A stretch of 37,818 nucleotides of DNA from Alphaproteobacteria bacterium (GCA_019242395.1 JAFAVP010000246.1:1-37818); one strand, 5' to 3'; positions 1,994 through 28,181 are shown, counted from the first letter of the stretch. The notes: a model not told the origin generated them from the letters alone. Made by a program: numbers and translations.

Positions 1994-2002
1994 GTGATCT
2001 CC

Positions 2003-3649: not shown

Positions 3650-3666
3650 GCTGATCCCCAGGTTGC

Positions 3667-5319: not shown

Positions 5320-5331
5320 TTATTTCTCCAC

Positions 5332-6990: not shown

Positions 6991-7298
6991 GACATCTTCC
7001 CCCCAGGCAACAGAGACAAAGCATAACCGCAGTTTTGGTGAGCGGATAGATTTGCAGGATAATTGTTGGACGGCAGGCGCAGCCTTGACCGGCTCACCTT
7101 GGGTTCCTACGTTGTTCTGGTGTGGCCTCGGACAGGTAGTGAGCGGCGGGGGGACAAACTTCACGACAACCGCGGTTCAACCGCAATTTTCTTTCCGCGT
7201 GTTGCAGGGGAGGGGGGGTAGCGAGGATTCTACGAAAACGAGTCAGAGTGGGAGCTGATGCTTAATGTACAAGATATGGAATTTCCGACGGTGAGCGG

Positions 7299-9307: not shown

Positions 9308-10908
9308 GGGTGCGCCTTGCGATAGGCGGCAAGGTCTTCCGGTGTATCGATGTCGATCAACGGTGCTTCGCTGCCCGCGTCTACCTCGTGCACCAATTCC
9401 GGATAGCTGCCGATCAGCCCGCGCGCGCCAACATCGCCCTCGATGGCTTCGATTTCCTCGAAGAAGCGCCGCGCGAACAACACCGGGTTGCCGCGCTTTC
9501 CGCCGCGTGTGGCCACGCAGATCGCGCGTCCTGCCGCGGGATCGAAAGCGGCGATCAATTTCTCGATCAGGCTCGTACTCACATCCGGCATATCGCCGAG
9601 AACGATGACGGCGCCGTCGCAATCGTCCGGGAGCGAGCGCAGGCCGCATTTCAACGAACTACTTAGCCCATGCGCGAAGTCGGGATTGTACACAAACTGA
9701 ACCGCATGACCGGCGAGCGCAGACCTTACGTGCTGAGCGTCGTTGCCAGTGACGACTGCAACCGGATGGGCGGAACTGGCCTGCACCGCCTCCACCACGC
9801 GCCGGATCATCGGCTTGCCTTCGATCTCCACCAGTAGCTTGTTGGCACCCATCCGCGAAGATGCCCCGGCACCGAGCACAATTCCGCCGATCTTCGGCGC
9901 CCTTGCAACTGCGGGTTCATCACGGGGTTGCGGCCGCGTGGGAATCTCCATCAGCAGTCCGCCCACTCCCATCCGTGAGATGTCTTTGCTTGTGACGTTG
10001 AAGCCAGCTGCGAGCCGCCACAGAACGAAATCGAAGCCGTTCAGTTTCGGGGACCGTGCACAGCCGGGCAATCCAATCACATCGGCGGCACCGATTTTGC
10101 CGATGAGTAGAAGGTTGCCGGGATCGACCGGCATCCCAAAGCGCTCGACCCTCCCACCTGTATTTTCGATTGCGGCCGGGACAACATCGCCGCGATCTTG
10201 AATCGCGCTGACGCCGAACACGAGCACGAGATCCGCCGCTGATGGGACTTCGCGCAGGGCACCGCTCAGCGCCTGCCGGTCGTGTGCCGTTTCACGCTCG
10301 CTGACGAGCTTCGAACCGATGCTCTTCACGCGCGCGCGAATGGCGCTGCGCGTTTTCTCGAGCAGGGCAGGGCGGGTGCCTGGAAGTGTCGTCAGAACAA
10401 CCGCAACATTGCGTGGCCGGAACGCAGCCACTTGGAGAGCAGGCTTCTGCAACACTTCCTCAATCTTCTCGAGGACGATCGCGTCCACGGCAAACGGGAT
10501 CACCTTGACGGTTGCGATCATCTGCCGGGGGGATACGCGTGCGAACGGCGGCAGCGTTGCCAACGTGAGCGACTCGTCGATGGAGTTGACGGCGTCGATG
10601 CACTCCGCATTTATCGAAACCAGTCCGTCCGCGGCCGCGAACAGGTTGGCGCGGCCGGTGAAGGCGGCACCGATGCGCACATTTTCGCCCGCCAGCCTCG
10701 CCGCAAGGCGTGCCGCTGCCTCGTCTTCCGGAACATCGCCTGCATCAAGCCGCGCCACGACGATCTTTTCGATGCCCGCGGTGCGCAGCAGTGAGATATC
10801 GGCGTCGGTCAGCAGATGTCCCTTCTTGAAGATGCGCTCGGGCGTTCGCACCGAATGTGCGACGAGCGAGCCGACAGCGTCGCCGACGGAAATGGAGCCA
10901 AATTGCAT
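9304..10908 (-). CDS. Molybdopterin-binding domain / MobA-MocA-like NTP transferase fusion
   Basis: N-terminal MoeA/MPT-binding-like region. C-terminal IGGIVLGAGASSRMGANKLLVEIEGKPMIRRVVEAV nucleotidyltransferase signature and VIVLGDMPDVS. Confidence 0.85.
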   Translation of the reverse strand: MQFGSISVGDAVGSLVAHSVRTPERIFKKGHLLTDADISLLRTAGIEKIVVARLDAGDVPEDEAAARLAARLAGENVRIGAAFTGRANLFAAADGLVSINAECIDAVNSIDESLTLATLPPFARVSPRQMIATVKVIPFAVDAIVLEKIEEVLQKPALQVAAFRPRNVAVVLTTLPGTRPALLEKTRSAIRARVKSIGSKLVSERETAHDRQALSGALREVPSAADLVLVFGVSAIQDRGDVVPAAIENTGGRVERFGMPVDPGNLLLIGKIGAADVIGLPGCARSPKLNGFDFVLWRLAAGFNVTSKDISRMGVGGLLMEIPTRPQPRDEPAVARAPKIGGIVLGAGASSRMGANKLLVEIEGKPMIRRVVEAVQASSAHPVAVVTGNDAQHVRSALAGHAVQFVYNPDFAHGLSSSLKCGLRSLPDDCDGAVIVLGDMPDVSTSLIEKLIAAFDPAAGRAICVATRGGKRGNPVLFARRFFEEIEAIEGDVGARGLIGSYPELVHEVDAGSEAPLIDIDTPEDLAAYRKAHP

Positions 10909-10917
10909 GAGAACAGA

Positions 10918-12267
10918 TTACGCGGGCGAAGCTTCCCGCGGCAAACAAAGACGCGCGCGCAATCCGCCTTCCGCACGATTCTCCAGGGTGATGGTGCCGC
11001 CATGCCCTTGCGCAATCGCCTTTACCAGCGTCAGTCCAAGCCCGGTTCCGCCCGTCTCGCTGCTGCGCGATCCTTCAAGCCTCACGAATGGCTCGAACAC
11101 CCGCGCCCTATCGCTTTCGGGAATGCCCGGGCCCTCATCGTCGACGATCAGGTCGTAGGTGTTCGCCGTCTTTTCGAGATGCACCTCCGCCTTCTTGCCG
11201 TAGGCGATGGCGTTCTCGATCAGGTTGCGTGCCGCGCGGCGGATTTCGTTCGGCCGGCAGGTGAGCGGCGCCGCGCCATGCGTTTCCCACGTCACGGGCT
11301 TTCCAAGCTCTTCGAGATCGGCACACAGGCTTTCCACCAGAGCCGCCAAATCGATGCGGCGCATCTGTTCCCAGCCCACGCCTTTGGCTGCTGACAGCAC
11401 GGCTTCCGTGAGTTCCTGGAGTTCTTCGATGTTCTTGGTCAGACGCTCGCGCGTGTCGGCATCGTCGACGAACTCCGTGTTGATGCGCATAGCCGTGATG
11501 GGCGTGCGAAGGTCATGGCCAACAGCGGACAACAGCTGACGCTGGCTCTCCATGGTGCGGCTGACCTGATCGGTCATGGCATTGAAGGCTGCCGCCGCGC
11601 GGCGCACATCTTCCGGCCCCAGTTCCGGCACCCGTGGCGCGGTGCCGCCGCGTGCGACCTCGGTTGCGGCCCCCGCCAGCTTGGACAGAGGCCGGGCGAC
11701 TCTCCGGGCGAGCAATCCGGCCGCGAGCGCGGTCACTACCGTGGCAACCATAGCGGCCGCGATGGACTGAACCGGCCAGGACGGTGGTGGGGTTTCGAAA
11801 AATGTGGTGATCAACTGCGTCCCACGAACAAGCGGGATCGTTATTTCAGTTACCGAGACCGGCGAGCGCGGGCGCTTCTTCTCTTCGGCGGTTGGTGAGC
11901 GAAGCTTCACCAGGACGGTCCGGCGTGTCTTCGCCTTGGGGAGAAGGCCCTGAATGCGGGCGGCAAGCGGTCGCTCGGCGTCGGACATCGCCGCCTCTGG
12001 CGCGCGGCCGTGCCGAATGCGAAAATCCCAAACATTCGAACTTAGGGCATGCGCGGCATTCTCCCGCTGCTTGGCGGGGATGGAAGCAAGCAGTGTCGAG
12101 GCCGAGACGGCCCGATCGATCAGGCGCTCGGTCATCGAGCTTTGAGTCAGCTGCTGCTGGCCGAGTTCGAACCAGATCGCCACCGCGAGGTTCGAGATGA
12201 GGACTGCGGCCGCCGTAACGATGACGAGCTGGGCGGCGAGGGTCCGCGGCCACAGGCGGAGCGTCAT
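10918..12267 (-). CDS. Sensor histidine kinase
   Basis: Two TM segments, HAMP-like region, SAVGHDLRTPITAMRINTEF H-box, NLIENAIAYG N-box, DDEGPGIPE, GGTGLGLTLVKAIAQGHGG. ATG at 12267 overlaps the response regulator stop (ATGA). Confidence 0.93.
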   Translation of the reverse strand: MTLRLWPRTLAAQLVIVTAAAVLISNLAVAIWFELGQQQLTQSSMTERLIDRAVSASTLLASIPAKQRENAAHALSSNVWDFRIRHGRAPEAAMSDAERPLAARIQGLLPKAKTRRTVLVKLRSPTAEEKKRPRSPVSVTEITIPLVRGTQLITTFFETPPPSWPVQSIAAAMVATVVTALAAGLLARRVARPLSKLAGAATEVARGGTAPRVPELGPEDVRRAAAAFNAMTDQVSRTMESQRQLLSAVGHDLRTPITAMRINTEFVDDADTRERLTKNIEELQELTEAVLSAAKGVGWEQMRRIDLAALVESLCADLEELGKPVTWETHGAAPLTCRPNEIRRAARNLIENAIAYGKKAEVHLEKTANTYDLIVDDEGPGIPESDRARVFEPFVRLEGSRSSETGGTGLGLTLVKAIAQGHGGTITLENRAEGGLRARLCLPREASPA

Positions 12268-12992
12268 TCGAATTGCGGCTCGGCCGCGAACATGTAGCCA
12301 CCGCCCCACACGGTTTTGATGTAGCGGGGATTCTTCGGATCGGGTTCCAGCTTGCGGCGTAGCCGGCTCACATGATTGTCGATGCTGCGGTCGAACAATT
12401 CGGCATCACGGCCCTTCGTGAGATCGAGGAGCTGGTTGCGCGTCAGCGCAATTTTCGGCCGCTCGATCAGGGCTCGCAACAGGCTGAACTCACCGCTGGA
12501 CAGGGGGGTTGCGACCCCATCGGCTCCAACCAGTTCCCGCTGCCCAGTGTCGAGCGTCCAGTCTCCGAAGCGGATGCGTTCCGCCTCCGGCGGTTTCTGC
12601 CGCGGCGGCAGCGCCTGTGTGCGCCGGAGCACGGCGGCAATTCGAGCGATCAGCTCGCGCGGGCTGAACGGCTTCGCTATGTAGTCGTCAGCGCCCATTT
12701 CGAGCCCGATGATGCGATCCACTTCCTCACCCCGCGCCGTGAGCAGGATCACCGGCGTTTGCCCCGTTTCGCGGATCGAGCGGCAAAGGCTCAGGCCATC
12801 CTCGCCTGGCATCATGATGTCGAGCACCACGAGATCGATGCCCGAGCTGCGCAAAATCTTGCGCGCCGCCATCGCCTCTGGAGCCGTCGTGGTGCGGTAG
12901 CCATGCTCCCGGAGATACCGGGCCAGCGGCTCGCGGATATCGCGGGCGTCCTCCACGATCAGAATGTGCGGCTTGGCCTCTTCCCGAACCAT
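12264..12992 (-). CDS. OmpR-family DNA-binding response regulator
   Basis: MVREEAKPHILIVEDARDIREPL...VVLDIMMPGEDG...LLTARG...GADDYIAKPF receiver, and winged-helix C-terminus ending HVSRLRRKLEPDPKNPRYIKTVWGGGYMF. Confidence 0.93.
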   Translation of the reverse strand: MVREEAKPHILIVEDARDIREPLARYLREHGYRTTTAPEAMAARKILRSSGIDLVVLDIMMPGEDGLSLCRSIRETGQTPVILLTARGEEVDRIIGLEMGADDYIAKPFSPRELIARIAAVLRRTQALPPRQKPPEAERIRFGDWTLDTGQRELVGADGVATPLSSGEFSLLRALIERPKIALTRNQLLDLTKGRDAELFDRSIDNHVSRLRRKLEPDPKNPRYIKTVWGGGYMFAAEPQFE

Positions 12993-13169
12993 AAGTCGGC
13001 TCCCGACGAGACGATGCGGCGGCGCAGGCGCTCGTGCAATGGCATTTGTCGCAAATCGTCGCTGGACCGCAGGGACCTTCAGCAATGCGACCATTTGCAG
13101 GCCTCAAGACAAAGCTTCGCGACACGGCTCCGTTTATGTAAGGTCGTAGAGAGACAAGGGGGGATAATC

Positions 13170-14021
13170 ATGCGGAGCTTCATTCGCTACGGTCTGATCG
13201 CAGGCGCGGTAGTCACCGCCGCAATTGGGGTAGCAGGCGCTGGAATGCAGAACCATCCGGCACCGGTCAATTCCCGCCAGGGCGGCCACCTGCAGCAGCC
13301 GCGCGGTCATGGCCGGGGCGGTCAGCGGTTCCTTGGCGAGTATGACCTCAACCATGATGGAAAGGTCACGCGGGATGAGTTCAACAAGGCCACGGCGCAG
13401 CAATTCGCTCAGGCGGGACATGGCGCCAAGTTCCTGACCGCAGCACAGTACGAGGCGTTCCGGACGCGAACCCTGCATCAGCATGCGGATCAGATTTTCC
13501 GCCGGGCCGACTGGAATTCAGACGGCAAGCTGACCTTCGATGAGTTTGCCAACCCCATCCGGGCGAGCTTTGCGCGAGCGGACCGGCAATCGGCTGGCGC
13601 GATCTTATGCCATCCGAGAAGCGGGGACAACGGGCAGTCGTCCGGACAGCCGCACAGGCGGCGCGGTGGGTCGCGAGGCGTTGGCGCCTTTTGCGCCCGC
13701 GACGACCTGAACCACGATGGCAGGATCACCCGTGCAGAGTTGGATCAGGCACTGCATCAGCAGTTTGCGTCGGTGGCCAAGGGTGGGTCTATGACCAAGG
13801 AGCAATTCGAGGCCATGCAGCATTCCCGCGCGGAAGCCACCAGCGGACGAACCTTCGGACGGATCGACAGCGACGGTGATGGCAAGGTCAGCCTGCAGGA
13901 ATTCACGGCGTACCAGCAGCGGACCTTTACCCGCATGGACGAGAATGGCGACGGCACAATCACCCGCGATGAGATGAGCTCGCGCCGGAACTATGCCTCG
14001 CACTCGAGCAACCGGACGTAA
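13170..14021 (+). CDS. Exported EF-hand calcium-binding protein (five EF loops)
   Basis: Signal peptide MRSFIRYGLIAGAVVTAAIGVAGA. Loops DLNHDGKVTRDE, DWNSDGKLTFDE, DLNHDGRITRAE, DSDGDGKVSLQE, DENGDGTITRDE. ORF start moved from 12372 to ATG 13170. Confidence 0.88.
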   Translation: MRSFIRYGLIAGAVVTAAIGVAGAGMQNHPAPVNSRQGGHLQQPRGHGRGGQRFLGEYDLNHDGKVTRDEFNKATAQQFAQAGHGAKFLTAAQYEAFRTRTLHQHADQIFRRADWNSDGKLTFDEFANPIRASFARADRQSAGAILCHPRSGDNGQSSGQPHRRRGGSRGVGAFCARDDLNHDGRITRAELDQALHQQFASVAKGGSMTKEQFEAMQHSRAEATSGRTFGRIDSDGDGKVSLQEFTAYQQRTFTRMDENGDGTITRDEMSSRRNYASHSSNRT

Positions 14022-14027
14022 GCCCGG

Positions 14028-14738
14028 TCAGGCTGTAGCGCGGGCGGCGGATGGTTCCGAAGCGCCGCCCGTGCGCAGCTGCAGTGTTATTTCTGCCAGA
14101 ATGGCGATGGCGATCTCCGCGGGCGAGCGGGCGCCTATAGCGAGGCCGACGGGGCCGTGTATGCGGTCGATTTCGACGGCCGAAAATCCATGCTGCGTTA
14201 GCCGTTCCCGACGCGCGGCGTGCGTTCTCTTCGAGCCCAGCGCGCCGATGTAGAAGCACTGGGAATTCAGTGCTGCTGTCAGAGCCGGATCGTCCACCTT
14301 GGGATCGTGTGTGAGCGCGACCAGCGCGCTGCGCAGGCCCAGCGGCGCCGTTGCCAACGCTGCGTCCGGCCAGTCGTGCGAAATGGGGACGTCTGGGAAG
14401 CGTTCTGGCGTCGCGAAAGCTGTGCGAGGATCGATCACCCGGACGCCGTAGCCGGCCAACTTCGCGATTTCGCATAACGGCTGGGCGATATGCACTGCCC
14501 CTACGATCGCCAGGTCCAGCGGCGGATTGTAGACCCTCAGAAACCAGTGGCGGCCTTCGATCTCTGCGGTGCCGCTCTGATCGGCGCGCGCAGCTTTCGC
14601 TGCCTCCTGGCCAAGCGGCGATGTGTCGGTCGCCGGATCGACAAGCCGCTCCTCACCAGAGGAAGTGTTGAGGGCCCGCACGACGGCTCTGCCGTTCCGG
14701 CGCGCCTCATCGAGGGCGACTAGAGTTTCGCGCTTCAT
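14028..14738 (-). CDS. XdhC/CoxI family protein (Rossmann-type C-terminal domain form)
   Basis: MKRETLVALDEARRNGRAVVRA..., LAIVGAVHIAQPLCEIAKLAGYGVRVIDPRTAFATPERFP, FYIGALGSKRTHAARRERL, IHGPVGLAIGARSPAEIAIAILAEI. Confidence 0.88.
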   Translation of the reverse strand: MKRETLVALDEARRNGRAVVRALNTSSGEERLVDPATDTSPLGQEAAKAARADQSGTAEIEGRHWFLRVYNPPLDLAIVGAVHIAQPLCEIAKLAGYGVRVIDPRTAFATPERFPDVPISHDWPDAALATAPLGLRSALVALTHDPKVDDPALTAALNSQCFYIGALGSKRTHAARRERLTQHGFSAVEIDRIHGPVGLAIGARSPAEIAIAILAEITLQLRTGGASEPSAARATA

Positions 14739-15049
14739 GCCATGACCGGCTCGACAAAAACTTCGATGCGGCCGCCGCAGGCGAGCCCCACGGACCATGC
14801 TTGCTCGTCGCTGACCCCGAATTCCAGCTTGCGGAGCCGCCCATCGCGCATAACCGCTTTTGCTTCCTCTATCACGGCGCCCTCCACGCAACCGCCTGAG
14901 ACGGAACCTGCGAAAGCACCATCGTCGCGCACCGCGATCTGACTGCCGGCCGGCCGGGGCGACGAGCCCCACGTTTTCACAACAGTTCCAATCGCCACGC
15001 GATGTCCCCGTTCAAGCCAGTCACGTGCGGCGGCAAGCACATCATCCAT
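14735..15049 (-). CDS. XdhC/CoxI family N-terminal-domain protein
   Basis: VAIGTVVKTWGSSPRPAGSQIAVRDDGAFAGSVSGGCVEGAVIEEA... and VGLACGGRIEVFVEPV. Stop overlaps the next start (ATGA). Start could be 15049 or 15082. Confidence 0.85.
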   Translation of the reverse strand: MDDVLAAARDWLERGHRVAIGTVVKTWGSSPRPAGSQIAVRDDGAFAGSVSGGCVEGAVIEEAKAVMRDGRLRKLEFGVSDEQAWSVGLACGGRIEVFVEPVMA

Positions 15050-15866
15050 GCGGTCCACCGGAGCTCCGCAGTGCGACTGCAACCGCCCTCTTCGCCAAGA
15101 CGGTTACCAAGTGGGCCCGGTACTCCGCCGAGCCATGAATGTCGGAGTTCATTCCCTCCGGCCGAATAGCGATCGAGGCGACGGCATCTGGCGCGAAGCT
15201 CTGTGCGAGCGCCGTCTCCATTTCGGACGACCGGAAGACGCAAGGCGCCGCGCCCGTGATCGCGACCCGTACTCCACCGGCGGTTTCAGCCACGAAGACG
15301 CCAACCATCGCGTAGCGGGACGCGGGATTGGCGAACTTCACATATCCCGCCCGTTTCGGAATGGGAAAGTCGACTGCCGTCAGGATTTCCGTATCTTCGA
15401 GCGCCGTCGAAAACATGCCCGTGAAGAAGTCATCGGCGCTAATGCTGCGCTGGTTTGTTCTGATAGTAGCCCCGAGTGCGAGGACGGCGGCCGGGTAATC
15501 CGCCGCCGGATCGTTGTTGGCCACCGAACCGCCGACGGTGCCCATGTGGCGCACGGCGGGATCGCCAATCTCCTCCACCAGACTGGCCAGGGCCGCAATA
15601 GCCTTGTGCACCATCTCGGAGTCCGCGACTTCAAAATGCCTGACTGCTGCACCGATCGAGATTGTGTCTCCAGCGCGGCGGATGAACGAGAGGTCGGCTA
15701 TTCTGGAAATATCGATCAAAGCCGCGGGGCTAGCGAGCCGCAACTTCATCGCGGGGATGAGGCTGTGACCCCCAGCAAGCAATTTTGCGTCTGGCAAGCG
15801 CGCTAGCAGCGCTTCGGCCTCTGCTAGCGAATTTGGGCGATGGTAGGTGAAGGGGTAGGGGATCAC
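15042..15866 (-). CDS. Molybdenum hydroxylase medium subunit (FAD-binding, CoxM/CutM-like)
   Basis: [47 protein letters not shown]...[31 protein letters not shown] start at 15866. Confidence 0.92.
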
Positions 15867-16336
15867 GCAGCTTCCGCCATGGTTCGTGCAGCAGCCTCAA
15901 TTGCATTGACGATGTTATGATAGCCGGTGCAGCGGCAGAGATTTCCTTCCAGCTCTTCGCGGATAGTTTGGCGGTCGAGCTGCGGCTTGCGCCGAATCAT
16001 GTCGATTGCCGTCAGGATCATGCCGGGCGTGCAGAAGCCGCACTGGAGCCCGTGATGCTCGCGGAAAGCCTCTTGCACGGGATGCAACTGGCCATCTTTC
16101 GCCACACCTTCGATGGTGACAATCTCGCTGCCAGAGGCCTGCGCAGCGAACATGGTGCAGGACTTTACCGCTCGCCCATCCAGCAGCACCACGCAGGCGC
16201 CGCACTGGCTGGTATCGCAGCCAATATGCGTGCCGGTCAGGCGTAAGTTTTCGCGAATGAAGTGCACGAGCAGCGTACGATCTTCGACGTCTGCCTCGTG
16301 TGTACTGCCGTTCACCGTCAACCGGACACCGGTCAT
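15863..16336 (-). CDS. Molybdenum hydroxylase small subunit, 2x[2Fe-2S] (CoxS/CutS-like)
   Basis: [22 protein letters not shown] and [15 protein letters not shown]...[14 protein letters not shown] motifs. ATG at 16336. Confidence 0.94.
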
Positions 16337-16390
16337 TGCGTACTCCTTATGATCAGACTCTGCGCGCGGCATTGCAGCGTCAAGCGTTTG

Positions 16391-17002
16391 TCACAGCACC
16401 AAGCCGAAGAGGATCAGCAGGATGATAATGATGGCGATCAGCCCAACAACCCATATCTGAGGCGCCACGCCTTCCTGGATCGCCGGTGGCGACGATAGTT
16501 CCTGCACAACCTGCGGCGGCGAGGCCATATCGTTCGCGAGCGGCTGCTCGGAGGTGGACTCCACGGCGGTCAGTTCAGCCGCGAACCTAGCGAAGAATTC
16601 ATCCGCGATCTGCCGGGCCGCACCATCTATCAGCCGCTGCCCGACTTGCGCGAGTTTGCCGCCAACAGTCGCTTTCGCATTGTAGGTGAGTTCTGTGCCG
16701 TCGCCTTCCGGAACCAAGAGCACTTCCGCTTGCCCTTTCGCGAAGCCTGCAACTCCCCCTTGCCCCTCTCCCTTCAAGACACAGCGGTGCGGCGGATCGA
16801 GTTCGGTAAGATCGACGTTGCCTTTGAACGTCGCGCTCACCGGCCCGATCTTCAGTTTGGCGGAGCCGGAAAGCCGATTGTCGGCGGTACGTTCCAGCGT
16901 CTCGCAGCCGGGAATGCACTTCTTCAGCATCTCCGGATCATTGAGCGCCGCCCAGACGGCCGCAGGCGCCGTCGCGATGAGGTAGCGGCCGGTGAATTGC
17001 AT
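16391..17002 (-). CDS. CoxG-like SRPBCC protein with C-terminal TM anchor
   Basis: MQFTGRYLIATAPAAVWAALNDPEMLKKCIPGCETLE...SGSAKLKIGPVSATFKGNVDL. C-terminal helix IWVVGLIAIIIILLILFGLVL. Confidence 0.9.
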   Translation of the reverse strand: MQFTGRYLIATAPAAVWAALNDPEMLKKCIPGCETLERTADNRLSGSAKLKIGPVSATFKGNVDLTELDPPHRCVLKGEGQGGVAGFAKGQAEVLLVPEGDGTELTYNAKATVGGKLAQVGQRLIDGAARQIADEFFARFAAELTAVESTSEQPLANDMASPPQVVQELSSPPAIQEGVAPQIWVVGLIAIIIILLILFGLVL

Positions 17003-18280: not shown

Positions 18281-20953
18281 ATGGCGTGGGTCTATTCGTT
18301 TGGAGGCGGCAAGGCCGAAGGCCAGGCTGGCCTGCGGGAGCTGCTCGGTGGCAAGGGAGCCAATCTTGCCGAGATGAGCAATCTGGGCCTGCCGGTGCCG
18401 CCTGGCTTCACCATCACAACCGAGGTTTGCACCCACTACTATACGCATGAGCGCACCTATCCGGATGACCTGAAAACAGTGGTCGATGCCGCGCTGGCGA
18501 GCGTGGGCGAACAAATGGGGGCGCGGTTCGGCGACGCGGCATCTCCGCTCCTTGTCTCGGTTCGCTCCGGCGCGAGAGTCTCCATGCCGGGCATGATGGA
18601 TACAGTTCTCAATCTCGGCCTCAATGCCCAGACGACAGAGGGGCTGGCGGCATTAACCTCGGACGCTCGCTTCGCCTACGACTCTTACCGCCGTTTTGTG
18701 CAGATGTACGCCAACGTGGTGCTGGGGCTCGACCACGCGCTGTTCGAGGAAATCCTGGAAGGGGAAAAGGAAAGAAACGGCGTGGAGTTGGATACCGAAC
18801 TTTCCGCCGATGACCTCAAAGGGATCGCGGCGCTTTTCCGGGAACGGGTGGAAACGGAAACGGGCCGGCCTTTCCCAGAAGATGTGCGTGAGCAATTGTG
18901 GGGTGCCATCGGCGCGGTGTTCCGCTCCTGGCAATCCCCGCGCGCGAAGACCTATCGCCGCTTGCACAACATCCCGGAAGAGTGGGGCACGGCCGTAAAC
19001 GTGCAGGCGATGGTCTTCGGGAATCGGGGTGAGACCAGCGCCACAGGCGTTGCTTTCACGCGCGATCCCTCGACTGGCGAAAAGCTCCTCTACGGGGAAT
19101 TCCTGATAAACGCCCAAGGGGAGGATGTTGTGGCGGGTATCCGCACGCCGCAGCCGGTGGCGAAGATTGTGCGCGAGCGCCAAAGGGGGCGGAAGCCTTC
19201 CATGGAAGAGGCGCTCCCCGCCGCGTACGCGGAGCTCGAGGGCATCTGCGCCAGGCTCGAGGCGCACTACCGTGACATGCAGGACGTCGAGTTCACGATC
19301 CAGGAAGGGCGCCTCTTCATGCTGCAGACCCGCTCCGGCAAACGGACGGCGGAAGCGGCGTTGAAGATTGCGGTCGACATGGTGGAAGAGGGGTTGATTG
19401 ACCGGAACACGGCCGTCCTTCGCATCGATCCCAATGCGCTGGACCAACTCCTGCACCCCACCCTCGATCCGTCCGCGCCCAAAGAACTGATTGCCACCGG
19501 CTTGCCTGCCTCGCCCGGTGCTGCGACCGGAGAAGTGGTGTTCAGCGCAGATGAGGCAGAGAAGCGTGCAGCGGACGGCCGCGCGGTTATCCTCGTACGC
19601 GCTGAAACAAGCCCCGAAGATATCCACGGCATGCATGCCGCAAAGGGGATATTGACGGCGCGCGGTGGCATGACGAGTCACGCGGCGGTGGTTGCGCGCG
19701 GCATGGGGCGTCCATGCGTATCGGGCGCTGGGGTTCTAAAGATCGATGCTGTGAACGGCAGCATGACCGCCGGCGCAGTGACGATCGGCCGGCGGGAGAT
19801 TATCACCATCGATGGGGCGACCGGTCAGGTATTCAGGGGCGCGGTGCCCATGCGGCAGCCTGAGCTCACGGGGGATTTCGGCACCTTGATGGGGTGGGCG
19901 GACTCTGTCCGGACGCTGAAAGTGCGGACGAATGCCGATACACCCGCCGATGCGGCGACGGCCCGGCGCTTCGGCGCGGAGGGCATCGGCCTTTGCCGCA
20001 CGGAGCACATGTTCTTCGAAGCCGGCCGCATCGTAGCTGTTCGCCAGATGATCCTGGCCGATGATGAGCAGGAGCGGAAAGCGGCTCTTTCTAAACTTCT
20101 GCCCATGCAGCGGGACGACTTCGCCGGGATATTTCGCGCAATGGACGGATTGGCCGTTACCATCCGCCTGCTCGACCCCCCGTTGCATGAGTTTTTGCCT
20201 CAAAAGGAAGAGGAAATCGCGGAAGTGGCGCGGGCAGCAGGCTCTACGCCAGCCAAGCTGCGCGCGCGCGCCATCGCGCTGCATGAGAGCAATCCGATGC
20301 TGGGGCATCGCGGTTGCCGCCTGGGCGTTACTTATCCCGAGATCTACGAGATGCAGGCGCGTGCGATCTTCGAGGCTGCGCTCGAAGTTGAGCAGTCCGG
20401 ATATGCGCCTGTTCGCCTCGAAATCATGATACCGCTGGTGGCCTTCAAGAGCGAGCTGGAGTTCCTGAAAGGCCGCATCGAAAGCGTTGCTCGCACGATC
20501 CAGCGGGAGCGGGGGCGCTGCCCCGCCTATTTGATCGGCACCATGATCGAGCTTCCTCGCGCGGCCCTGCGCGCGCAGGAGATCGCGGCGGCCGCCGAGT
20601 TCTTCTCATTCGGCACGAACGATCTAACCCAGACCACCTTGGGTTTAAGCCGTGACGACGCCGGCACGTTCCTCACCGAGTACCTCTCCAAAACTCTGAT
20701 TGCGCGCGACCCGTTCGTATCGATCGATCAGGACGGCGTGGGGGAGCTGGTGAAAATCGCCGCCGAGCGGGGCAGAGCGGTGCGTCCAAAACTCAAGCTT
20801 GGCATCTGCGGCGAACACGGCGGAGACCCGGATTCGATTTGCTTCTGCCATGAAGCGGGGTTGGATTACGTCTCCTGTTCCCCTTTCCGTGTGCCCGTCG
20901 CACGGCTTGCGGCCGCTCAGGCAGCGCTCCGATATCCGCGGCAGCAGGCCTGA
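18281..20953 (+). CDS. ppdK: Pyruvate, phosphate dikinase
   Basis: 890 aa. GGKGANLAEMSNLGLPVPPGFTITTEVC, SVRSGARVSMPGMMDTVLNLGLN, GGMTSHAAVVARGMGRPCVSG, ...LGICGEHGGDPDSICFCHEAGLDYVSCSPFRVPVARLAAAQA. Confidence 0.97.
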   Translation: MAWVYSFGGGKAEGQAGLRELLGGKGANLAEMSNLGLPVPPGFTITTEVCTHYYTHERTYPDDLKTVVDAALASVGEQMGARFGDAASPLLVSVRSGARVSMPGMMDTVLNLGLNAQTTEGLAALTSDARFAYDSYRRFVQMYANVVLGLDHALFEEILEGEKERNGVELDTELSADDLKGIAALFRERVETETGRPFPEDVREQLWGAIGAVFRSWQSPRAKTYRRLHNIPEEWGTAVNVQAMVFGNRGETSATGVAFTRDPSTGEKLLYGEFLINAQGEDVVAGIRTPQPVAKIVRERQRGRKPSMEEALPAAYAELEGICARLEAHYRDMQDVEFTIQEGRLFMLQTRSGKRTAEAALKIAVDMVEEGLIDRNTAVLRIDPNALDQLLHPTLDPSAPKELIATGLPASPGAATGEVVFSADEAEKRAADGRAVILVRAETSPEDIHGMHAAKGILTARGGMTSHAAVVARGMGRPCVSGAGVLKIDAVNGSMTAGAVTIGRREIITIDGATGQVFRGAVPMRQPELTGDFGTLMGWADSVRTLKVRTNADTPADAATARRFGAEGIGLCRTEHMFFEAGRIVAVRQMILADDEQERKAALSKLLPMQRDDFAGIFRAMDGLAVTIRLLDPPLHEFLPQKEEEIAEVARAAGSTPAKLRARAIALHESNPMLGHRGCRLGVTYPEIYEMQARAIFEAALEVEQSGYAPVRLEIMIPLVAFKSELEFLKGRIESVARTIQRERGRCPAYLIGTMIELPRAALRAQEIAAAAEFFSFGTNDLTQTTLGLSRDDAGTFLTEYLSKTLIARDPFVSIDQDGVGELVKIAAERGRAVRPKLKLGICGEHGGDPDSICFCHEAGLDYVSCSPFRVPVARLAAAQAALRYPRQQA

Positions 20954-21030
20954 ACACTATGGATCCGGTCAGGGATACGAAGAAGAGACCGCCGGCGGCG
21001 CAGTTCGCGTCACCGGCGATCTTCCTCACA

Positions 21031-21049
21031 CCGGCCTGGTGAGGGCCGG
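21031..21049 (-). terminator. Hairpin 10 nt downstream of secreted protein A1 (candidate terminator or processed 3' structure)
   Basis: CCGGCC-TGGTGAG-GGCCGG perfect 6-bp inverted repeat. Counterpart at 24177-24195 has an identical loop and a compensated stem. No U-tract, so termination is uncertain. Confidence 0.5.
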
Positions 21050-21058
21050 GCGATACGC

Positions 21059-21586
21059 TTAGTTCCCAGTAAAGCGTTCCGCGGATATGTCTCCGGTGAT
21101 CTCAGTCACCAAATTGCCGTTGACGTCGTAGAACTTCTGGTCGAACGGGCCCGTGTAGCTCATGCCATCGCGGCTCAACTTCAGACTTTGCTCAAGCGTG
21201 AAGTAGCCAGTTGGGTTGCTGTTGGTGTCGAACGTCCAGCCGAAATGATGTTCCTGCACCTTGCGGCCCTGGCTCTCCCAGATTCCCTGGCAGATATTGC
21301 CGGTCGTGGGGGGGAAATCGACATTGTCGAATTCCGTCCCATCGCTGTGCCAGGTGGTGATGCTGTGGGCGACAACGTTGCCGCCGACGATAAGTGAGGT
21401 CTTCCACATCCCCACGATGGAGGCGTCGCCTTGGGGCGCTACCTCCATGCGGGATAATCTGGGCTCCGGGAATTTGCTGAGTGGGTCAGACTTGCCCCCC
21501 ACAGGTGCGCCACACGAGGCGTAGGCCGAGAAGGTGCCCGCCATCCAGGCGATGGCTGAGGCAGAAATGAGAATAGATCGGTACAT
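21059..21586 (-). CDS. Small secreted protein A1 (uncharacterised; paralogue of 24210-24737)
   Basis: Signal peptide MYRSILISASAIAWMAGTFSAYASCGAP. Shared core SIVGMWK...WHSDGTEFDxVD...GNICQGxWESxGRKVxEHHFGWTFDTxxNPTGYFTLEQ...AERFTGN. Confidence 0.82.
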   Translation of the reverse strand: MYRSILISASAIAWMAGTFSAYASCGAPVGGKSDPLSKFPEPRLSRMEVAPQGDASIVGMWKTSLIVGGNVVAHSITTWHSDGTEFDNVDFPPTTGNICQGIWESQGRKVQEHHFGWTFDTNSNPTGYFTLEQSLKLSRDGMSYTGPFDQKFYDVNGNLVTEITGDISAERFTGN

Positions 21587-21677
21587 CACCAAGTCCTCCA
21601 TCATGTTGAGACGCCGCCAACCGGCGCCTTCATCGAAGGGCATGTGCCCACGACATGCGGGAGGCAAAGCGTTGCCG

Positions 21678-21705
21678 TTGGCGTTTCCGAGCGGAGCGCC
21701 TTGGC
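21678..21705 (+). promoter_or_regulatory. Conserved hairpin element upstream of B1 (A1/B1 divergent region)
   Basis: TTGGCGTTTCCGAGCGGAGCGCCTTGGC. 8-bp stem (two G-U) with 5-nt loop. Same-length counterpart at 24827-24854. Confidence 0.45.
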
Positions 21706-21764
21706 TTAAGATGGCCGTCGTCAGCGGTTAAAGGGGCTGATCTCGCGGATGTTCAGGCCTTTAG

Positions 21765-21812
21765 CTTTGCTCCTGTTGCCGTTCCGGCACCCGCCAGTTC
21801 GTGCCGCGATTG
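21765..21812. promoter_or_regulatory. Conserved block about 128 bp upstream of B1 start (candidate operator/leader)
   Basis: CTTTGCTCCTGTTGCCGTTCCGGCACCCGCCAGTTCGTGCCGCGATTG, near-identical to 24915-24963 and at the same distance from the start codon. Contains GGCAC...GTGCC dyad. Confidence 0.5.
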
Positions 21813-21892
21813 GAGCCGCCGGGCAGCGCGTTCGAAAGGACGGACAGCTGATGAATCGCCGATGATTTGCCGAGAAACCGGATGATTTCGCG

Positions 21893-24052
21893 GTGAACCA
21901 GCGGCCCACACTGTTGAAACCACTCGGCCCAGCAAGCCTCGCCGAACAGGATGATTTTCATCTCGGCGATATTCTCGTTCAACCATCGCTGCGGGAAATC
22001 CGAGCCGGTGAAACGCGCGAGATCCTGGAGCCCCGCGTGATGCAGGTGCTAGTGGCGCTGGCGCGCGCCAATGGTGCCGTGCTCTCGCGCGATGAGCTGA
22101 TCCGCCAATGCTGGGGCGGGCGCATTGTCGGCGACGATGCGATCAACCGCTGCGTCTCGAAAGTGCGGCAGCTGGCTGACCTGGGCGGGAAGGCCTTCGA
22201 GATCGAAACGATTCCCCGCGTTGGCTATCGGTTACGCAGAACGGGTACCTGTGCCACGCTGCCAGAAACGAGGCAAAACGTTCGGCAGGAGCAGGTCGCA
22301 ACCATAGCCGAGGCCGCAACTCCGGCATCGCAAGCGCGGGTTACGAATCGCCGCAGACTGATCCTCATCGCCCTCGCTGGAATACTAGTCATTCCCGGGA
22401 TCGTTGCCGCCATTTCCTATTTCCTGCCTCTAAGGCCGAAGGAATGGACGATTGTCGAATCTCACATGCCGTTCATCGCCACGCCTTTGGTGGAGAGGGC
22501 GCCCGATTTCTCGCCGAACGGTTGGATGATCGCTTATTCCGCCGGACCGGACTATCTTCACCGCAGCATCTATGTACGCTTGATAAGCGGCGGCGAGCCG
22601 CTTCGTCTGGTTGGCCCTCCATTGAGCAGCTATTCGCCGGTGTGGTCCCCAGACGGCAGCCAGATCGCTTTCCATATCTTCACTCCCCGCGAGCCATGCA
22701 AAATCATGCTCGTTGCGGCCCTGGGTGGACAGCCGCGCGAGATCGGCCGCTGCAGAACGGCAACATTTTCCACCTTGGCTTGGGATCGGCCCGGAGGGGG
22801 CATGCTCTTCACCGACTCACCGAACAATCACACTCCTGTCGCAATCTATCGTCTTGATCTCAGTGGCGGCCCCCTGCGACAGCTGACACATCCGCAGGGT
22901 GGACCGGCCGGGCGCGACGGCAGCGGCACCATTTCGCCGGACGGCAAGACCCTGGCGTTCCTGCGGCAGATTGGTGCGGCCCGAAACCAGATCATCCTTC
23001 AAGACCTGGCGACCGGAGCAGAACGCGTGCTGCTTTCGACTAAGGACGATGATGACCCATTGGCGTGGTCAAACGATTCCTCGGCGTTATTCGTGGGCCG
23101 GAACATTCCCTGGGATTCCTCGCTGTGGGCTTACCCGGTGGATGGTAGCGCAGCGCAGCGCATCACCAATCTGGCGGAGAACATCGGGTGGGTGTCGTCA
23201 GGGCCGAACGGCTTGGTGGCGATGGATCTGGAGCGAAGCGAATATGACATCGCGATCGCCTCTCCTTTGCCTGGACAGCCGGGCAAGAGTCTCGATGCCG
23301 ACGGATGGAGCCCCTATTCCCTTGCCTATTCGCGTGACGGAGTTTTGGCGGCGACCGCGCGGCGTTCCGGCGTGACCAGCTTGCTGCTTAGCGGAAGCGA
23401 TGGCGCGCTCCACGAACTGCTTCAACTTAAGAATGATACAGCCGGCTTCGTGACCTGGTCGCCTGACGGCTCGCGGCTTGCGTTCGCAGAGCCCGCCAAT
23501 GCCAGTTTCACAATCATGGTTGTGAATCGCCGCGGTGAAATTGTGAAGCGAGTACCCTATCGCGCACAGGAGATGGGGGGGCTCGCTTGGAGCGAGGATG
23601 GCCAGAACTTGCTCGTCACCAGCGAAGACGCCCGTGGTTGGCGCACATGGCAGGTCGCTTTAGCTCGCAATGGCACCCCGCAGGCTGTTATGCCGTACGG
23701 TTGGAGGTCCGTCGTAGCGCGCGGCCGCATGATGTTCGGTGTCAAAAGTGGCACGAAAGGCATATGGCGGCTGGACGGCACACCCCGAAAGATCACCAGC
23801 GAGCCCGATGACAATTCGGGTTTCTGGGAGATATCTGGCGACCGGATCATCTATGGGGATTTCAGCAATCCGGATGTACCCGTGGCGATGGCCGTGCCTG
23901 TTACTGGTGGAACCCCCAAGCCGATCGGATATCTCGCTGGACCAATTTTGGGCAGCAAGATCGCATTCAATCCGAAAACCGGGCTCGTGGCCTATTTGCG
24001 GGTAACCCGGCAGGACACAGACATTGGTTGGCTGCGCGTTGCCCGAAAGTAG
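21893..24052 (+). CDS. Membrane-anchored winged-helix (CadC-like) regulator with TolB/PD40 beta-propeller, B1
   Basis: N-terminal wHTH (PRVMQVLVALARANGAVLSRDELIRQCWGGRIVGDDAINRCVSKVRQL...FEIETIPRVGYRL), TM LILIALAGILVIPGIVAAISYFL, then repeated W-SPDG-x-(I/L)-AF propeller blades. GTG start. Confidence 0.88.
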   Translation: MNQRPTLLKPLGPASLAEQDDFHLGDILVQPSLREIRAGETREILEPRVMQVLVALARANGAVLSRDELIRQCWGGRIVGDDAINRCVSKVRQLADLGGKAFEIETIPRVGYRLRRTGTCATLPETRQNVRQEQVATIAEAATPASQARVTNRRRLILIALAGILVIPGIVAAISYFLPLRPKEWTIVESHMPFIATPLVERAPDFSPNGWMIAYSAGPDYLHRSIYVRLISGGEPLRLVGPPLSSYSPVWSPDGSQIAFHIFTPREPCKIMLVAALGGQPREIGRCRTATFSTLAWDRPGGGMLFTDSPNNHTPVAIYRLDLSGGPLRQLTHPQGGPAGRDGSGTISPDGKTLAFLRQIGAARNQIILQDLATGAERVLLSTKDDDDPLAWSNDSSALFVGRNIPWDSSLWAYPVDGSAAQRITNLAENIGWVSSGPNGLVAMDLERSEYDIAIASPLPGQPGKSLDADGWSPYSLAYSRDGVLAATARRSGVTSLLLSGSDGALHELLQLKNDTAGFVTWSPDGSRLAFAEPANASFTIMVVNRRGEIVKRVPYRAQEMGGLAWSEDGQNLLVTSEDARGWRTWQVALARNGTPQAVMPYGWRSVVARGRMMFGVKSGTKGIWRLDGTPRKITSEPDDNSGFWEISGDRIIYGDFSNPDVPVAMAVPVTGGTPKPIGYLAGPILGSKIAFNPKTGLVAYLRVTRQDTDIGWLRVARK

Positions 24053-24176
24053 AATCCAGCCAAAGTCGGACGGCGCCTCCTACCCTGGCCAGACTAGTTC
24101 AGTAGCATGTGTTGCGTGATTACGTGGGCGAAAGGGCGCCGGCGCCGCTCGGGGCAGCGCCAGCGTCCTCCTTCTG

Positions 24177-24195
24177 CCAGCCTGGTGAGGGCTGG
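24177..24195 (-). terminator. Hairpin 14 nt downstream of secreted protein A2 (candidate terminator or processed 3' structure)
   Basis: CCAGCC-TGGTGAG-GGCTGG. Same loop as 21031-21049 with a double compensatory stem change. No U-tract. Confidence 0.5.
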
Positions 24196-24209
24196 ACGAG
24201 GCTGTATGG

Positions 24210-24737
24210 CTAATTGCCGGTGAAGCGTTCCGCTTGCATCTCGCCGTTGTATTCGGTCAGCAGGTTGCCGTCATTGTCATAGTATTTCTGGTCAAAGGGG
24301 CCGCTGTAGCTCATCCCGTCGCTGCTCAGCTTCACGTTCTGCTCCAGCGTGAAGTAGCCGGTCGGGTTGCCACTGGTATCGAAGGTCCAGCCGAAATGAT
24401 GTTCCGTCACCTTGCGGCCTTTGCTTTCCCAGACGCCCTGGCAGATGTTGCCTACCATCGGCGACAGGTCGACAGTGTCGAATTCGGTGCCATCGCTGTG
24501 CCAGGTCGCGATGCTGGTCACGACAACATTGCCGCCGATGAGCCAATTGTTCTTCCACATTCCCACAATGGAAGCGTAGCCCTGCGGAGCTGCTTGCGAG
24601 GGTGATAGCTTCAGGTGCGGCATCTTATTGAGTACACCCGCCTTGCCTCCCAAAGGTGCGCCACACGACGCCTGGGCCGAAACGCTGCCCGCCACCAATG
24701 CAATGGCCGCGGCAGAAAGAATGATAGAACCGTACAT
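24210..24737 (-). CDS. Small secreted protein A2 (uncharacterised; paralogue of 21059-21586)
   Basis: Signal peptide MYGSIILSAAAIALVAGSVSAQASCGAP. Same core and AERFTGN C-terminus as A1. Confidence 0.82.
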   Translation of the reverse strand: MYGSIILSAAAIALVAGSVSAQASCGAPLGGKAGVLNKMPHLKLSPSQAAPQGYASIVGMWKNNWLIGGNVVVTSIATWHSDGTEFDTVDLSPMVGNICQGVWESKGRKVTEHHFGWTFDTSGNPTGYFTLEQNVKLSSDGMSYSGPFDQKYYDNDGNLLTEYNGEMQAERFTGN

Positions 24738-24826
24738 CACCAATGCTCCTTTGCTTGAGGCGCCGCCCACCGGCGCCTTCCATGCGAGCCGCGCGAGCCG
24801 GTGGCATTCAGCCAAAGAGCTCCCCT

Positions 24827-24854
24827 TTGGCGTTCCCGTAAGGGACGCCTTGGC
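24827..24854 (+). promoter_or_regulatory. Conserved hairpin element upstream of B2 (A2/B2 divergent region)
   Basis: TTGGCGTTCCCGTAAGGGACGCCTTGGC. 8-bp stem (one G-U) with 5-nt loop. Counterpart at 21678-21705. Confidence 0.45.
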
Positions 24855-24914
24855 ATAATGTCAGCCGTTCTATCCGGCCGAAGGGGTATATGCCGGGGAT
24901 GTCTGCGTCGCTCT

Positions 24915-24963
24915 CTTTGCTCCTGTTTGCCGTTCCGGCACGCGCCAGTTCGTGGCGCAATTG
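24915..24963. promoter_or_regulatory. Conserved block about 129 bp upstream of B2 start (candidate operator/leader)
   Basis: CTTTGCTCCTGTTTGCCGTTCCGGCACGCGCCAGTTCGTGGCGCAATTG. Contains perfect GCGCCA-GTTCG-TGGCGC dyad. Confidence 0.5.
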
Positions 24964-25043
24964 CAGAGCATTGCGGCGGCATTCGAAAGGACCTGAGCCT
25001 GACGGCACGCTTGCGGTTCGTCGACGAAGCCGGTGAATCGCCG

Positions 25044-27176
25044 ATGAACTACGAATCGCGCAACGTGAAAGCCGTTCCCGCGATCAGTCTCGCGGAGGAA
25101 GCGGACTTTTCCATTGGGCCGTTGCGCGTGTGTCCGTCGGCAAGGCTGGTCAATGTTGGTGAGCGGAGTGAGACCATCGAGCCTCGCGTCATGCAGGTGC
25201 TGGTGGTGCTGGCGCGCGCCGCGGGCAATGTGGTGTCCCGCGAACAGCTGATCGACCGCTGCTGGGGCGGCAGAATCGTCGGCGACGATGCCGTCAGTAG
25301 CACCATTGTTAAGGTGCGCGCACTGGCCAGGCTTTGCGCCGAGCCGGCCTTTGAAATCGAGACCATCCCCAGGGTCGGCTATCGCCTGATCCGGCGCGAA
25401 ACGGTTACCGGCGAGCCTCTCTCTGCTGACCCTGTCTCTTCTGCTGTACCATCCAAGTTCCCATCCTGGCGCTGGCTGCTGGCCGGGTTGGCCGTTGCTA
25501 TCGCCGCGCTCGTAGGGAGCTTGATTGCGGCGCGCTATCTTTATTCGAGCCATGAGGCCGAATGGATAGTGGCGGAATCTCACATGCCGTTCATTGCCAC
25601 GGCTGACATCGAATCGTTTCCGGCCATCGCACCGGACGGGACGATGATCGCCTATGCGGCGGGTCCAGACAGGCAAAGCCGGCACCTCTACTTGCGTCTG
25701 ATCAAGGGTGGAGATCCGATCCAGCTCACCCACGATGCATACGATGCGGCCGCCCCGGCATGGTCACCGGACGGCAAAACGATCGTCTATAGGATTTCCC
25801 AGGAAGGACATCCCTGCGGGATTATGGAAATTTCGGTTCCGGCCGGACAACCGCGCGAAGCCGGACGATGCCGGGTCAGTCAATGGTCCGAATTCTCCTT
25901 CGATCCATCCGGCCGCTCCCTCTTTTATGTCGACGCTCCTGCTCCCGGGGCACCGGAGGGAATCTTCAGGCTCGATCTCGATAACGGACGCGTCTCTGCC
26001 GTTACGCATCCTGCACGCAGGTCCGTTTCTGACGGATTTCCTGCCGTCTCGCCGGGCGGCCGCGAGTTGCTGTATGTACGCAATATCGAGTCTGCCGCAG
26101 TCGAGGTCCGCGTTCTGACATTTGCGAGCGGTGCTGACCGCCGCATTGCGGCATTCGAAGGCACCGACGCAACCGCAACTTGGTCGAAAGACGGCCAGAC
26201 CATTTTTCTTTCGCGGTCGTCGGAAGTCGACGGCGACAAATCGCTATGGGCGTATCCTCTATCGCGCGGCAATCCTTCGCGCATTCTGACAACCGGCGAT
26301 CATCTCGGCAGGCTCTCGGCTGGACCTGACGGACTGCTGGCGATGGAAATGTCCTACCCCGGCGGGCAACTTGTGGCAGTCACCCCCCATTCCGGCCTGC
26401 CGCCGAAGCCGATTCCGAGCAACGGCCTTTACACATGGTGTGTAGACTACGCTCCGGATGGGACATTCCTGGCGACGGGCCGGCGCGGGGAGACGCAGGG
26501 AGTCTGGATCGGCGGCAAGAACGGTTCTCTGCATGAGTTGCTCAGCACAGGTGCCGAGACCTGGGCTCTTCGCTGGTCGCCAGATGGGACGCGGTTTGCC
26601 TTCACCGCATGGTTGCACCGGCGCCGCTTCGAGGTGCGAGTGTTCAAGCGGGAGGGTGAGCCGATCGCGCAATTTCGCTTCCAGAGCAACGACTACTCCG
26701 GCCTTCTCGACTGGACCGCCGATGGCAAAAGCATTCTGACCAGCCGCCAGGAGACGAAAGGCTGGCGCATCTGGAAAACCGATCTCGCAACGCCGGGCAA
26801 GTCCGTCCCGATCACGCCCTATGGCTGGCGCGATCCGCGGGTCCACGGAACCATGCTGTTGGCCACAAGGGACGGAGTTGCAGGCATCTGGCGCATCGAT
26901 GGAACGCCGCGCCGCGTGGCAGATGGGCCGGCGCCGGAACGCTCTTACGTTTACACCATTGCCGGAGATCGCCTCGTCTATTCTGACACGAGCGATCCCA
27001 AACACCCGATGTTTTCAGCAGTGAGCCTCAACGGCGGTCCAAAGGAGCGGCTGGCGCCGCTGCCGGACGGGCAGTACGACTTCACGTTCGGGGTCGATCC
27101 GAAATCGGGCGACATCGTCTACACGCAAGAGACTGACAACCGGGACATCGGCCTGCTGCGGATGGTGAAACGGTAA
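25044..27176 (+). CDS. Membrane-anchored winged-helix (CadC-like) regulator with TolB/PD40 beta-propeller, B2
   Basis: ORF runs from 24801. Start at ATG 25044 chosen by alignment with B1 (MNYESRN...SLAEEADFSIGPLRV). wHTH, TM WLLAGLAVAIAALVGSLIAARYL, propeller repeats. Confidence 0.87.
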   Translation: MNYESRNVKAVPAISLAEEADFSIGPLRVCPSARLVNVGERSETIEPRVMQVLVVLARAAGNVVSREQLIDRCWGGRIVGDDAVSSTIVKVRALARLCAEPAFEIETIPRVGYRLIRRETVTGEPLSADPVSSAVPSKFPSWRWLLAGLAVAIAALVGSLIAARYLYSSHEAEWIVAESHMPFIATADIESFPAIAPDGTMIAYAAGPDRQSRHLYLRLIKGGDPIQLTHDAYDAAAPAWSPDGKTIVYRISQEGHPCGIMEISVPAGQPREAGRCRVSQWSEFSFDPSGRSLFYVDAPAPGAPEGIFRLDLDNGRVSAVTHPARRSVSDGFPAVSPGGRELLYVRNIESAAVEVRVLTFASGADRRIAAFEGTDATATWSKDGQTIFLSRSSEVDGDKSLWAYPLSRGNPSRILTTGDHLGRLSAGPDGLLAMEMSYPGGQLVAVTPHSGLPPKPIPSNGLYTWCVDYAPDGTFLATGRRGETQGVWIGGKNGSLHELLSTGAETWALRWSPDGTRFAFTAWLHRRRFEVRVFKREGEPIAQFRFQSNDYSGLLDWTADGKSILTSRQETKGWRIWKTDLATPGKSVPITPYGWRDPRVHGTMLLATRDGVAGIWRIDGTPRRVADGPAPERSYVYTIAGDRLVYSDTSDPKHPMFSAVSLNGGPKERLAPLPDGQYDFTFGVDPKSGDIVYTQETDNRDIGLLRMVKR

Positions 27177-27221
27177 GCCCCCAGACTAACATGGCGCAAA
27201 ACCGAATCGGGTGAGGGTAGC

Positions 27222-28181
27222 ATGGGACAGGGACTGGATCGGGCGTTCGCGCTGGAGGCGGTGCGGGTGACTGAGGCGGCCGCCATCGCGGCGGCGAAGC
27301 AGATCGGCCGGGGCAACGAGAAAGCCGCGGATCACGCGGCGGTCGAAGCCATGCGGGCCGCCTTCAATCAGCTGCCTATCGACGGCACGGTGGTGATCGG
27401 GGAGGGCGAGCGCGATGAAGCGCCCATGCTCTTCATCGGTGAAAAGGTGGGGAGCGGCGGGCTTGCGGTGGATATTGCCCTCGATCCGCTGGAGGGCACC
27501 ACGCTGACAGCCAAGGCGCTGCCGAATGCGCTCGCCGTGATGGCAATGGCGGAGCCCGGCACGCTTCTCAATGCGCCGGATACGTATATGGACAAGATCG
27601 CCATCGGCCCGGGTTATCCGGCTGGCACTATCGATCTCGATGCTGAGCCGGGAGAGAATGTCCGCAGGCTGGCGAGAGCCAAAGATGTGCCGCCAAATGA
27701 AATTACCGCACTCATTTTGGACCGGCCGCGCCATGCGGAGATTATCGAGTCCGTGCGCAAGGCGGGTGCGGCCGTGCAGCTGATCACGGACGGCGACGTG
27801 GCCGGCGTGATCGCCACCACCGATCCGGAAACCGGCATAGACATCTATCTGGGGCAGGGGGGAGCGCCGGAGGGCGTGCTGGCGGCGGCGGCGCTACGCT
27901 GTGTTGGGGGCCAGATGCAAACGCGGCTGGTGTTCCGCAACGATGACGAGCGTTCCCGCGCCGCGAAGTGGGGCATTACCGACCTGAAGCGCAAATATTC
28001 GCTCACCGATCTGGCCTCGGGCGATGTCATTTTCGCCGCCACCGGTGTGACGAATGGATCGATGCTGTCCGGGGTGCATGTGCACGGCGAGTTTATCACC
28101 ACGGAGAGCATTGTGATGCGCTCGGCTACGCACACGGTGCGCTGGGTGAAGGGGAAGCATCTGCGCCGCCATGCTGGCTGA
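27222..28181 (+). CDS. glpX: Class II fructose-1,6-bisphosphatase
   Basis: VTEAAAIAAAKQIGRGNEKAADHAAVEAMR, DGTVVIGEGERDEAPMLFIGEKVG, DIALDPLEGTTLTA. Confidence 0.95.
   Translation: MGQGLDRAFALEAVRVTEAAAIAAAKQIGRGNEKAADHAAVEAMRAAFNQLPIDGTVVIGEGERDEAPMLFIGEKVGSGGLAVDIALDPLEGTTLTAKALPNALAVMAMAEPGTLLNAPDTYMDKIAIGPGYPAGTIDLDAEPGENVRRLARAKDVPPNEITALILDRPRHAEIIESVRKAGAAVQLITDGDVAGVIATTDPETGIDIYLGQGGAPEGVLAAAALRCVGGQMQTRLVFRNDDERSRAAKWGITDLKRKYSLTDLASGDVIFAATGVTNGSMLSGVHVHGEFITTESIVMRSATHTVRWVKGKHLRRHAG

Follow-up and report, generated by a model that had tools for sequence, protein, structure and literature searches.

VtrA/VtrC and ToxR/ToxS are co-component pairs that form an obligate heterodimer and bind a ligand. 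In these systems, and likewise in TcpP/TcpH, the partner is an eight-stranded lipocalin-like barrel whose gene lies next to that of a regulator made of a wHTH and a transmembrane (TM) segment (PMC9214523). We describe here a two-gene unit, A/B, with comparable parts: a wHTH-TM-extracytoplasmic regulator (B) and a neighbouring small protein (A), for which export and a barrel fold are predicted. The two arrangements nevertheless differ in several respects. The partner genes of VtrA and ToxR are located downstream in one operon, often overlapping, whereas A is divergent in 60 of 75 loci; an N-terminal TM helix holds those partners in the membrane, whereas A has a predicted signal peptide. B has PD40 propellers or TPR repeats instead of a periplasmic domain of the VtrA/ToxR type, the nearest PDB folds of A are avidins and not VtrC, and in A/B the barrel is kept through exchanges of the sensor.

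B also resembles the CadC/ToxR-like regulators in its PF00486 wHTH, its single TM helix and its extracytoplasmic C-terminal sensor, and the TPR-type B genes are like the TPR part of CadC. Unlike these regulators, the B genes analysed first below carry tandem TolB-like propellers and have a conserved divergent partner gene. The text of a survey of transmembrane transcription regulators (PMC10269533) never mentions PD40, propeller or TPR types, and in a literature search we did not find the A/B unit described.

Two divergent gene pairs in one alphaproteobacterial contig

The window, i.e. the whole stretch of 37,818 nucleotides that we analysed, contains two A/B pairs in the order A1(-)/B1(+) then A2(-)/B2(+), according to ORF calls and homologue alignment (Table 1). 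An earlier sequence-only reading had described a tandem two-gene module with this order, this orientation and a set of shared motifs, and ORFs and alignments agree with it. The signal peptide that it had attributed to both A proteins was recovered in the homologue alignment, and the wHTH-TM-propeller architecture attributed to B1 and B2 was confirmed by Pfam and hydropathy, with an AF2 model for B1.

The A1 ORF covers 21059-21667(-) and its likeliest start is the ATG ending at 21586, which precedes the signal peptide; the A2 ORF covers 24210-24815(-), with a likely start at 24737. As called, the B2 ORF starts at 24801, and alignment with B1 and its relatives places the likely true start at the ATG at 25044. 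A1 and A2 are 69% identical. B1 and B2 share 38% identity overall; the wHTH alone reaches 58%, the propeller parts 31-38%. Two further A genes are present on other contigs of the same genome (C92 and C17), each divergent from a wHTH gene, which brings the count for this genome to 4/4, and in a second species (G056) the pairs stand in the same tandem order so far as its contigs reach. Since the genes on C92 and C17 are also paired with a wHTH gene and the tandem of G056 is alike, the A/B pairing exceeds chance.

Table 1. Positions of the A/B genes and of candidate regulatory elements in the window
Feature	Position	Strand	Description and basis
A1, small secreted protein	21059..21586	-	Signal peptide and predicted 8-stranded barrel; ORF call, homologues, family AF2 model
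Inverted repeat, A1 leader	21610..21628	-	7-nt arms, 5-nt loop, just 5' of RBS
Candidate operator, pair 1	21850..21878	-	11-bp period, AATCATC/ATTCATC-type units; p = 0.017 for the locus alone
B1	21893..24052	+	wHTH, disordered linker, TM helix, tandem propellers; Pfam, AF2, Foldseek
A2, A1 paralogue	24210..24737	-	ORF call, homologue alignment; query of the family AF2 model
Inverted repeat, A2 leader	24759..24777	-	Position matches that of the A1 leader repeat
Candidate operator, pair 2	25032..25060	-	11-bp period, overlaps the B2 start codon; p = 0.047 for the locus alone
B2, B1 paralogue	25044..27176	+	wHTH-TM-propeller; ORF call, Pfam, alignment

Both B proteins match Trans_reg_C (PF00486, an OmpR/PhoB-type wHTH) above the Pfam cut-off (E 9e-11 for B1 and 4e-10 for B2) and also match PD40 (E 7e-17 and 8e-18). 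By AF2, Pfam and Foldseek, B1 consists of a wHTH (residues 22-116), a disordered linker, a TM helix (153-180) and tandem propellers (185-718); its AF2 model (mean pLDDT 77) has about 45 strands and matches double propellers along its length in Foldseek. Superposed on TolB, the B1 propeller fits at 2.8 A along some 240 residues and is 22-23% identical to it. However, B is devoid of the TolB N-terminal domain, is fused to a wHTH and a TM helix and has two propellers, and the scores of B1 and B2 against the TolB model of NCBIfam, TIGR02800 (83.8 and 79.0 bits), are below the cut-off of 343.

For A, we observed no match above cut-off in Pfam or NCBIfam, no match in a profile search of PDB sequences and no homologue in the plasmid collection. 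Modelled with AF2 from 23 sequences (mean pLDDT 79), the family shows, besides the signal peptide and a stretch of low confidence, an antiparallel barrel of eight strands with a block pLDDT of 75-97, and from this model A is predicted to be an avidin/lipocalin-like barrel. Its best PDB fold matches are avidins (rhizavidin, bradavidin 2), with a probability of 1.0 and a borderline E of about 0.01, the TM-score to the target being only about 0.5-0.65; A and the avidins have the eight-stranded barrel in common, but no sequence relationship was found in the PDB profile search. The sole N-terminal hydrophobic stretch of A is a signal peptide with an AxA site, as predicted from the sequence only, and A probably resides outside the cytoplasm. 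Two cysteines are conserved in the family (C25 at 96% and C99 at 93%, the second being missing from some members), and judged from this conservation the pair would be compatible with a disulfide. PDB entry 8t0b was dropped as a lead, being a DUF1842 protein of another organism with likeness at the fold level only. A PADLOC search with A gave nothing above cut-off and lent no support to an anti-phage role.

Other parts of the window hold further gene clusters. Four successive large ORFs (493, 663, 550 and 610 aa), each with GLUG motifs, occupy 512-7164 (-) and are apparently a tandem family of surface or adhesin-like proteins. Genes for a MobA-like/molybdopterin-binding protein, XdhC, an FAD-binding dehydrogenase subunit and CoxG are clustered at 9304-17002, forming an accessory cluster of the molybdenum-hydroxylase type. 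The gene at 12372-14021 (+), divergent from a two-component response regulator/histidine kinase pair, encodes a protein of 549 aa in which at least four calcium-binding EF-hand motifs are present.

Linkage of A with a regulator gene across genomes

A is present in 5 of 96 genomes of the family to which the window genome belongs and, the window's own excepted, in none of about 400 genomes drawn across its phylum; its distribution is therefore patchy. A scan of named genomes found it in Acidobacteriaceae, Candidatus Acidiferrales, Caulobacteraceae and Gammaproteobacteria, and among sampled genomes, one Acidobacterial family has it in 43 of 251 and the Acidiferrales-type order in 15 of 95. The A/B unit spans at least two phyla of soil bacteria (Alpha-/Gammaproteobacteria and Acidobacteriota).

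Linkage was counted on 75 A genes of Alpha-/Gammaproteobacteria and Acidobacteriota with at least 600 nt upstream. The divergent neighbour was a wHTH gene at 60 of them, an ECF sigma gene at 3 and neither at 12; among other flanking genes, wHTH genes amounted to 7/415. In ten sampled genomes we found 13-36 PF00486 genes per genome, and adjacency by chance should therefore be below 1%, gene totals having been derived approximately from genome size. As the loci are related and many lie on metagenome contigs, these counts are not independent trials. The A-wHTH pairing persists across phyla while the outer flanks change.

All complete B homologues scanned have the PF00486 wHTH, except in L036, where it sits on a separate, overlapping ORF, and every B with enough sequence shows a hydropathy peak after the wHTH, as for a single TM helix. 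Only about 16 of the B genes that adjoin A have the propeller. Nearly all of the non-propeller B genes scanned have TPR repeats, weak in some, and the sensor domain of one (L023) was not recognised.

The regulator itself can also be of another kind. At three Candidatus Acidiferrales loci an ECF sigma gene replaces the wHTH gene as divergent neighbour, and a Ser/Thr kinase-propeller gene adjoins the ECF gene or lies beyond A; at a gammaproteobacterial locus (L043, 1465-3299) the divergent neighbour of A encodes a LytS-type histidine kinase, again in place of a wHTH protein. The simplest reading is that unlike regulators (wHTH, ECF sigma, LytS-type) control one output gene, A.

Two local arrangements were also recorded. 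In the relative G042 (L029, 5651-6905 (+) and about 3146-3259), two successive A genes stand beside one B and an A-gene fragment lies on the opposite side of B, which suggests repeated gain and loss of A genes. At L024 (7471-9372), the genome has a further wHTH gene, which carries a fused FGE-sulfatase-like domain and lies divergently to the gene of a DUF6923-like protein; this hints that pairing a regulator with a divergent partner may be a more general habit.

Sensor exchange and repeats in the intergenic DNA

The sensor class (propeller or not) undergoes 9 changes on the A tree, of which well-supported branches force at least 8, and the class is distributed non-randomly (9 changes of the propeller label versus 14.8 when shuffled). 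In swap pairs, protein identity stops at the wHTH/linker or TM boundary. Thus L027B (propeller) and L029B (TPR) are 62% identical over about 179 residues, covering wHTH and linker, and unrelated beyond, and the intergenic DNA of these two loci is 75% identical over 269 nt. L148B and L158B share 68% over 119 residues, in the wHTH only, and their A proteins are 61% identical; L155 and L160, which have unlike sensors, share 80% of their intergenic DNA over 185 nt. The sensor was swapped repeatedly while wHTH and A were kept together, and the A/B unit therefore probably joins an exchangeable sensor to one conserved output.

The two loci of G056 combine the parts otherwise. At G056a the wHTH of the regulator is 82% identical to that of B1 and its propeller is nearer to that of B2 (59-63% versus 30-41%); on these identities, the propellers themselves are also exchanged. 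G056b has A and propeller of the A2/B2 type, and its wHTH and intergenic DNA, the last 50 nt before A excepted, resemble those of the TPR locus of G042; A and sensor can therefore also travel together. From the swap pairs and the G056 loci it follows that operator region and wHTH move jointly, which is what binding of one by the other would predict.

Partial Mantel tests on 54 loci gave the same picture for A and for the DNA. A varies with the wHTH when the sensor is given (partial r 0.48, p 0.002) and not detectably with the sensor when the wHTH is given (0.07, p 0.10). Likewise, with A given, intergenic DNA varies with the wHTH (partial r 0.30, p 0.002) and not detectably with the sensor (0.03, p 0.19).

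An 11-bp direct-repeat spacing is a known form of PhoB/OmpR-family sites. Twelve Acidobacterial loci, with both sensor types, share in their intergenic DNA the block TTCACC-AAA-CTTCACC-TCCGG-CTTTACC-(N)-CTTCATTGCC, which is composed of direct repeats with a period of mostly 11 bp. A repeat matrix built from 11 of these loci was applied to other loci; the spacing peak was again at 11 bp, with z 10.6 for 34 held-out loci of almost exclusively Acidobacterial origin and z 5.5 for 14 proteobacterial loci. The matrix reached p<0.05 in 20 of 46 held-out intergenic regions; of 58 control segments, taken from downstream of A, 1 did so. The repeat signal is absent from many loci and is modest at both window loci taken singly. 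Because such operator-like repeats lie in the intergenic region, B is likely to control the promoter region that the two genes share.

With these data, the earlier interpretation can be divided. That A and B work as a unit is upheld by the divergent wHTH gene at 60 of 75 A genes. The same reading had expected A beside wHTH-propeller genes, which was found for the wHTH part, at those 60 loci, and only partly for the propeller (about 16). Control of the promoter region by B appears likely from the repeats. In contrast, the proposal that the propeller senses A was not supported in that form, as TPR repeats replace the propeller and A is not tracked by the sensor when the wHTH is given (partial r 0.07); on the swaps and the Mantel tests, we reject the propeller as a specific A receptor as a general rule.

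The A leader contains a further element, an inverted repeat that, in the genus of the window, precedes the start codon of A by about 25-40 nt. It is kept in 9 loci (90.5% of cells paired, few two-sided changes) and might represent either a DNA dyad or an RNA hairpin. A search of Rfam over 20900-27300 gave no match but one sub-threshold chance one.

Possible roles of B and of the A barrel

We favour, with somewhat better than even confidence, a model in which B acts from the membrane as a one-component regulator of the divergently encoded A, so that exchangeable sensors serve one constant output. The cytoplasmic wHTH of B, of the CadC/ToxR type, would bind the tandem 11-bp direct repeats between A and B, and B bound there would control the divergent A gene and probably also its own. 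The extracytoplasmic domain (two TolB-like propellers in the window, TPR elsewhere) would be an exchangeable input module, and A, as an exported eight-stranded barrel, the constant output of the unit. Both the binding of the wHTH to the intergenic DNA and the regulation of A by B are what we infer.

Alternatively, A could belong to a co-component receptor, as a periplasmic ligand-binding barrel that docks on the extracytoplasmic domain of B and relays the signal. The export and the eight-stranded barrel predicted for A and its strong linkage with the wHTH gene are in favour of this, as are the known partners, which are likewise eight-stranded lipocalin-like barrels beside a wHTH-TM gene (PMC9214523), and G056b, which keeps A and propeller type together. 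However, A is retained when the sensor is swapped for an unrelated fold, i.e. when the supposed partner surface is replaced, and, for a given wHTH, A and sensor do not vary together; moreover, A and B are divergent rather than in one operon, and the signal peptide of A looks cleavable, no membrane anchor being seen. A co-sensor role of A in the style of VtrA/VtrC or ToxR/ToxS is weakened, and we consider the docking receptor rather unlikely. We also hold it unlikely that unrelated and interchangeable sensor folds (propeller, TPR and kinase-propeller with ECF sigma) all read A as a common periplasmic receptor or messenger, in a new co-component class extending across phyla.

The exchangeable sensor and constant output would also fit a negative-feedback or ligand-carrier loop, where A, induced by B and then secreted, captures or clears the stimulus that B senses and makes no contact with B itself. 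Small ligands are commonly bound by the barrel fold, and avidins are the best PDB matches of A, but unlike sensor folds would then need to sense related stimuli, and to us such a loop seems quite improbable. Finally, B might regulate itself or distant genes, with A hitch-hiking beside it. The 12 of 75 A genes that have no divergent wHTH or ECF gene fit this explanation; against it stand a linkage that persists across phyla with changing outer flanks, a unit rebuilt again and again with other sensors or with ECF sigma, and the joint variation of A and wHTH, and we give it hardly any credit.

If A were, after all, a shared receptor or messenger, one barrel ligand would plug into several signalling chassis. 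With B as the regulator of A, an unnamed exported barrel family would gain a regulator and a candidate operator, and the natural pairs that differ only in their outside sensor would make signalling across the membrane by membrane regulators testable.
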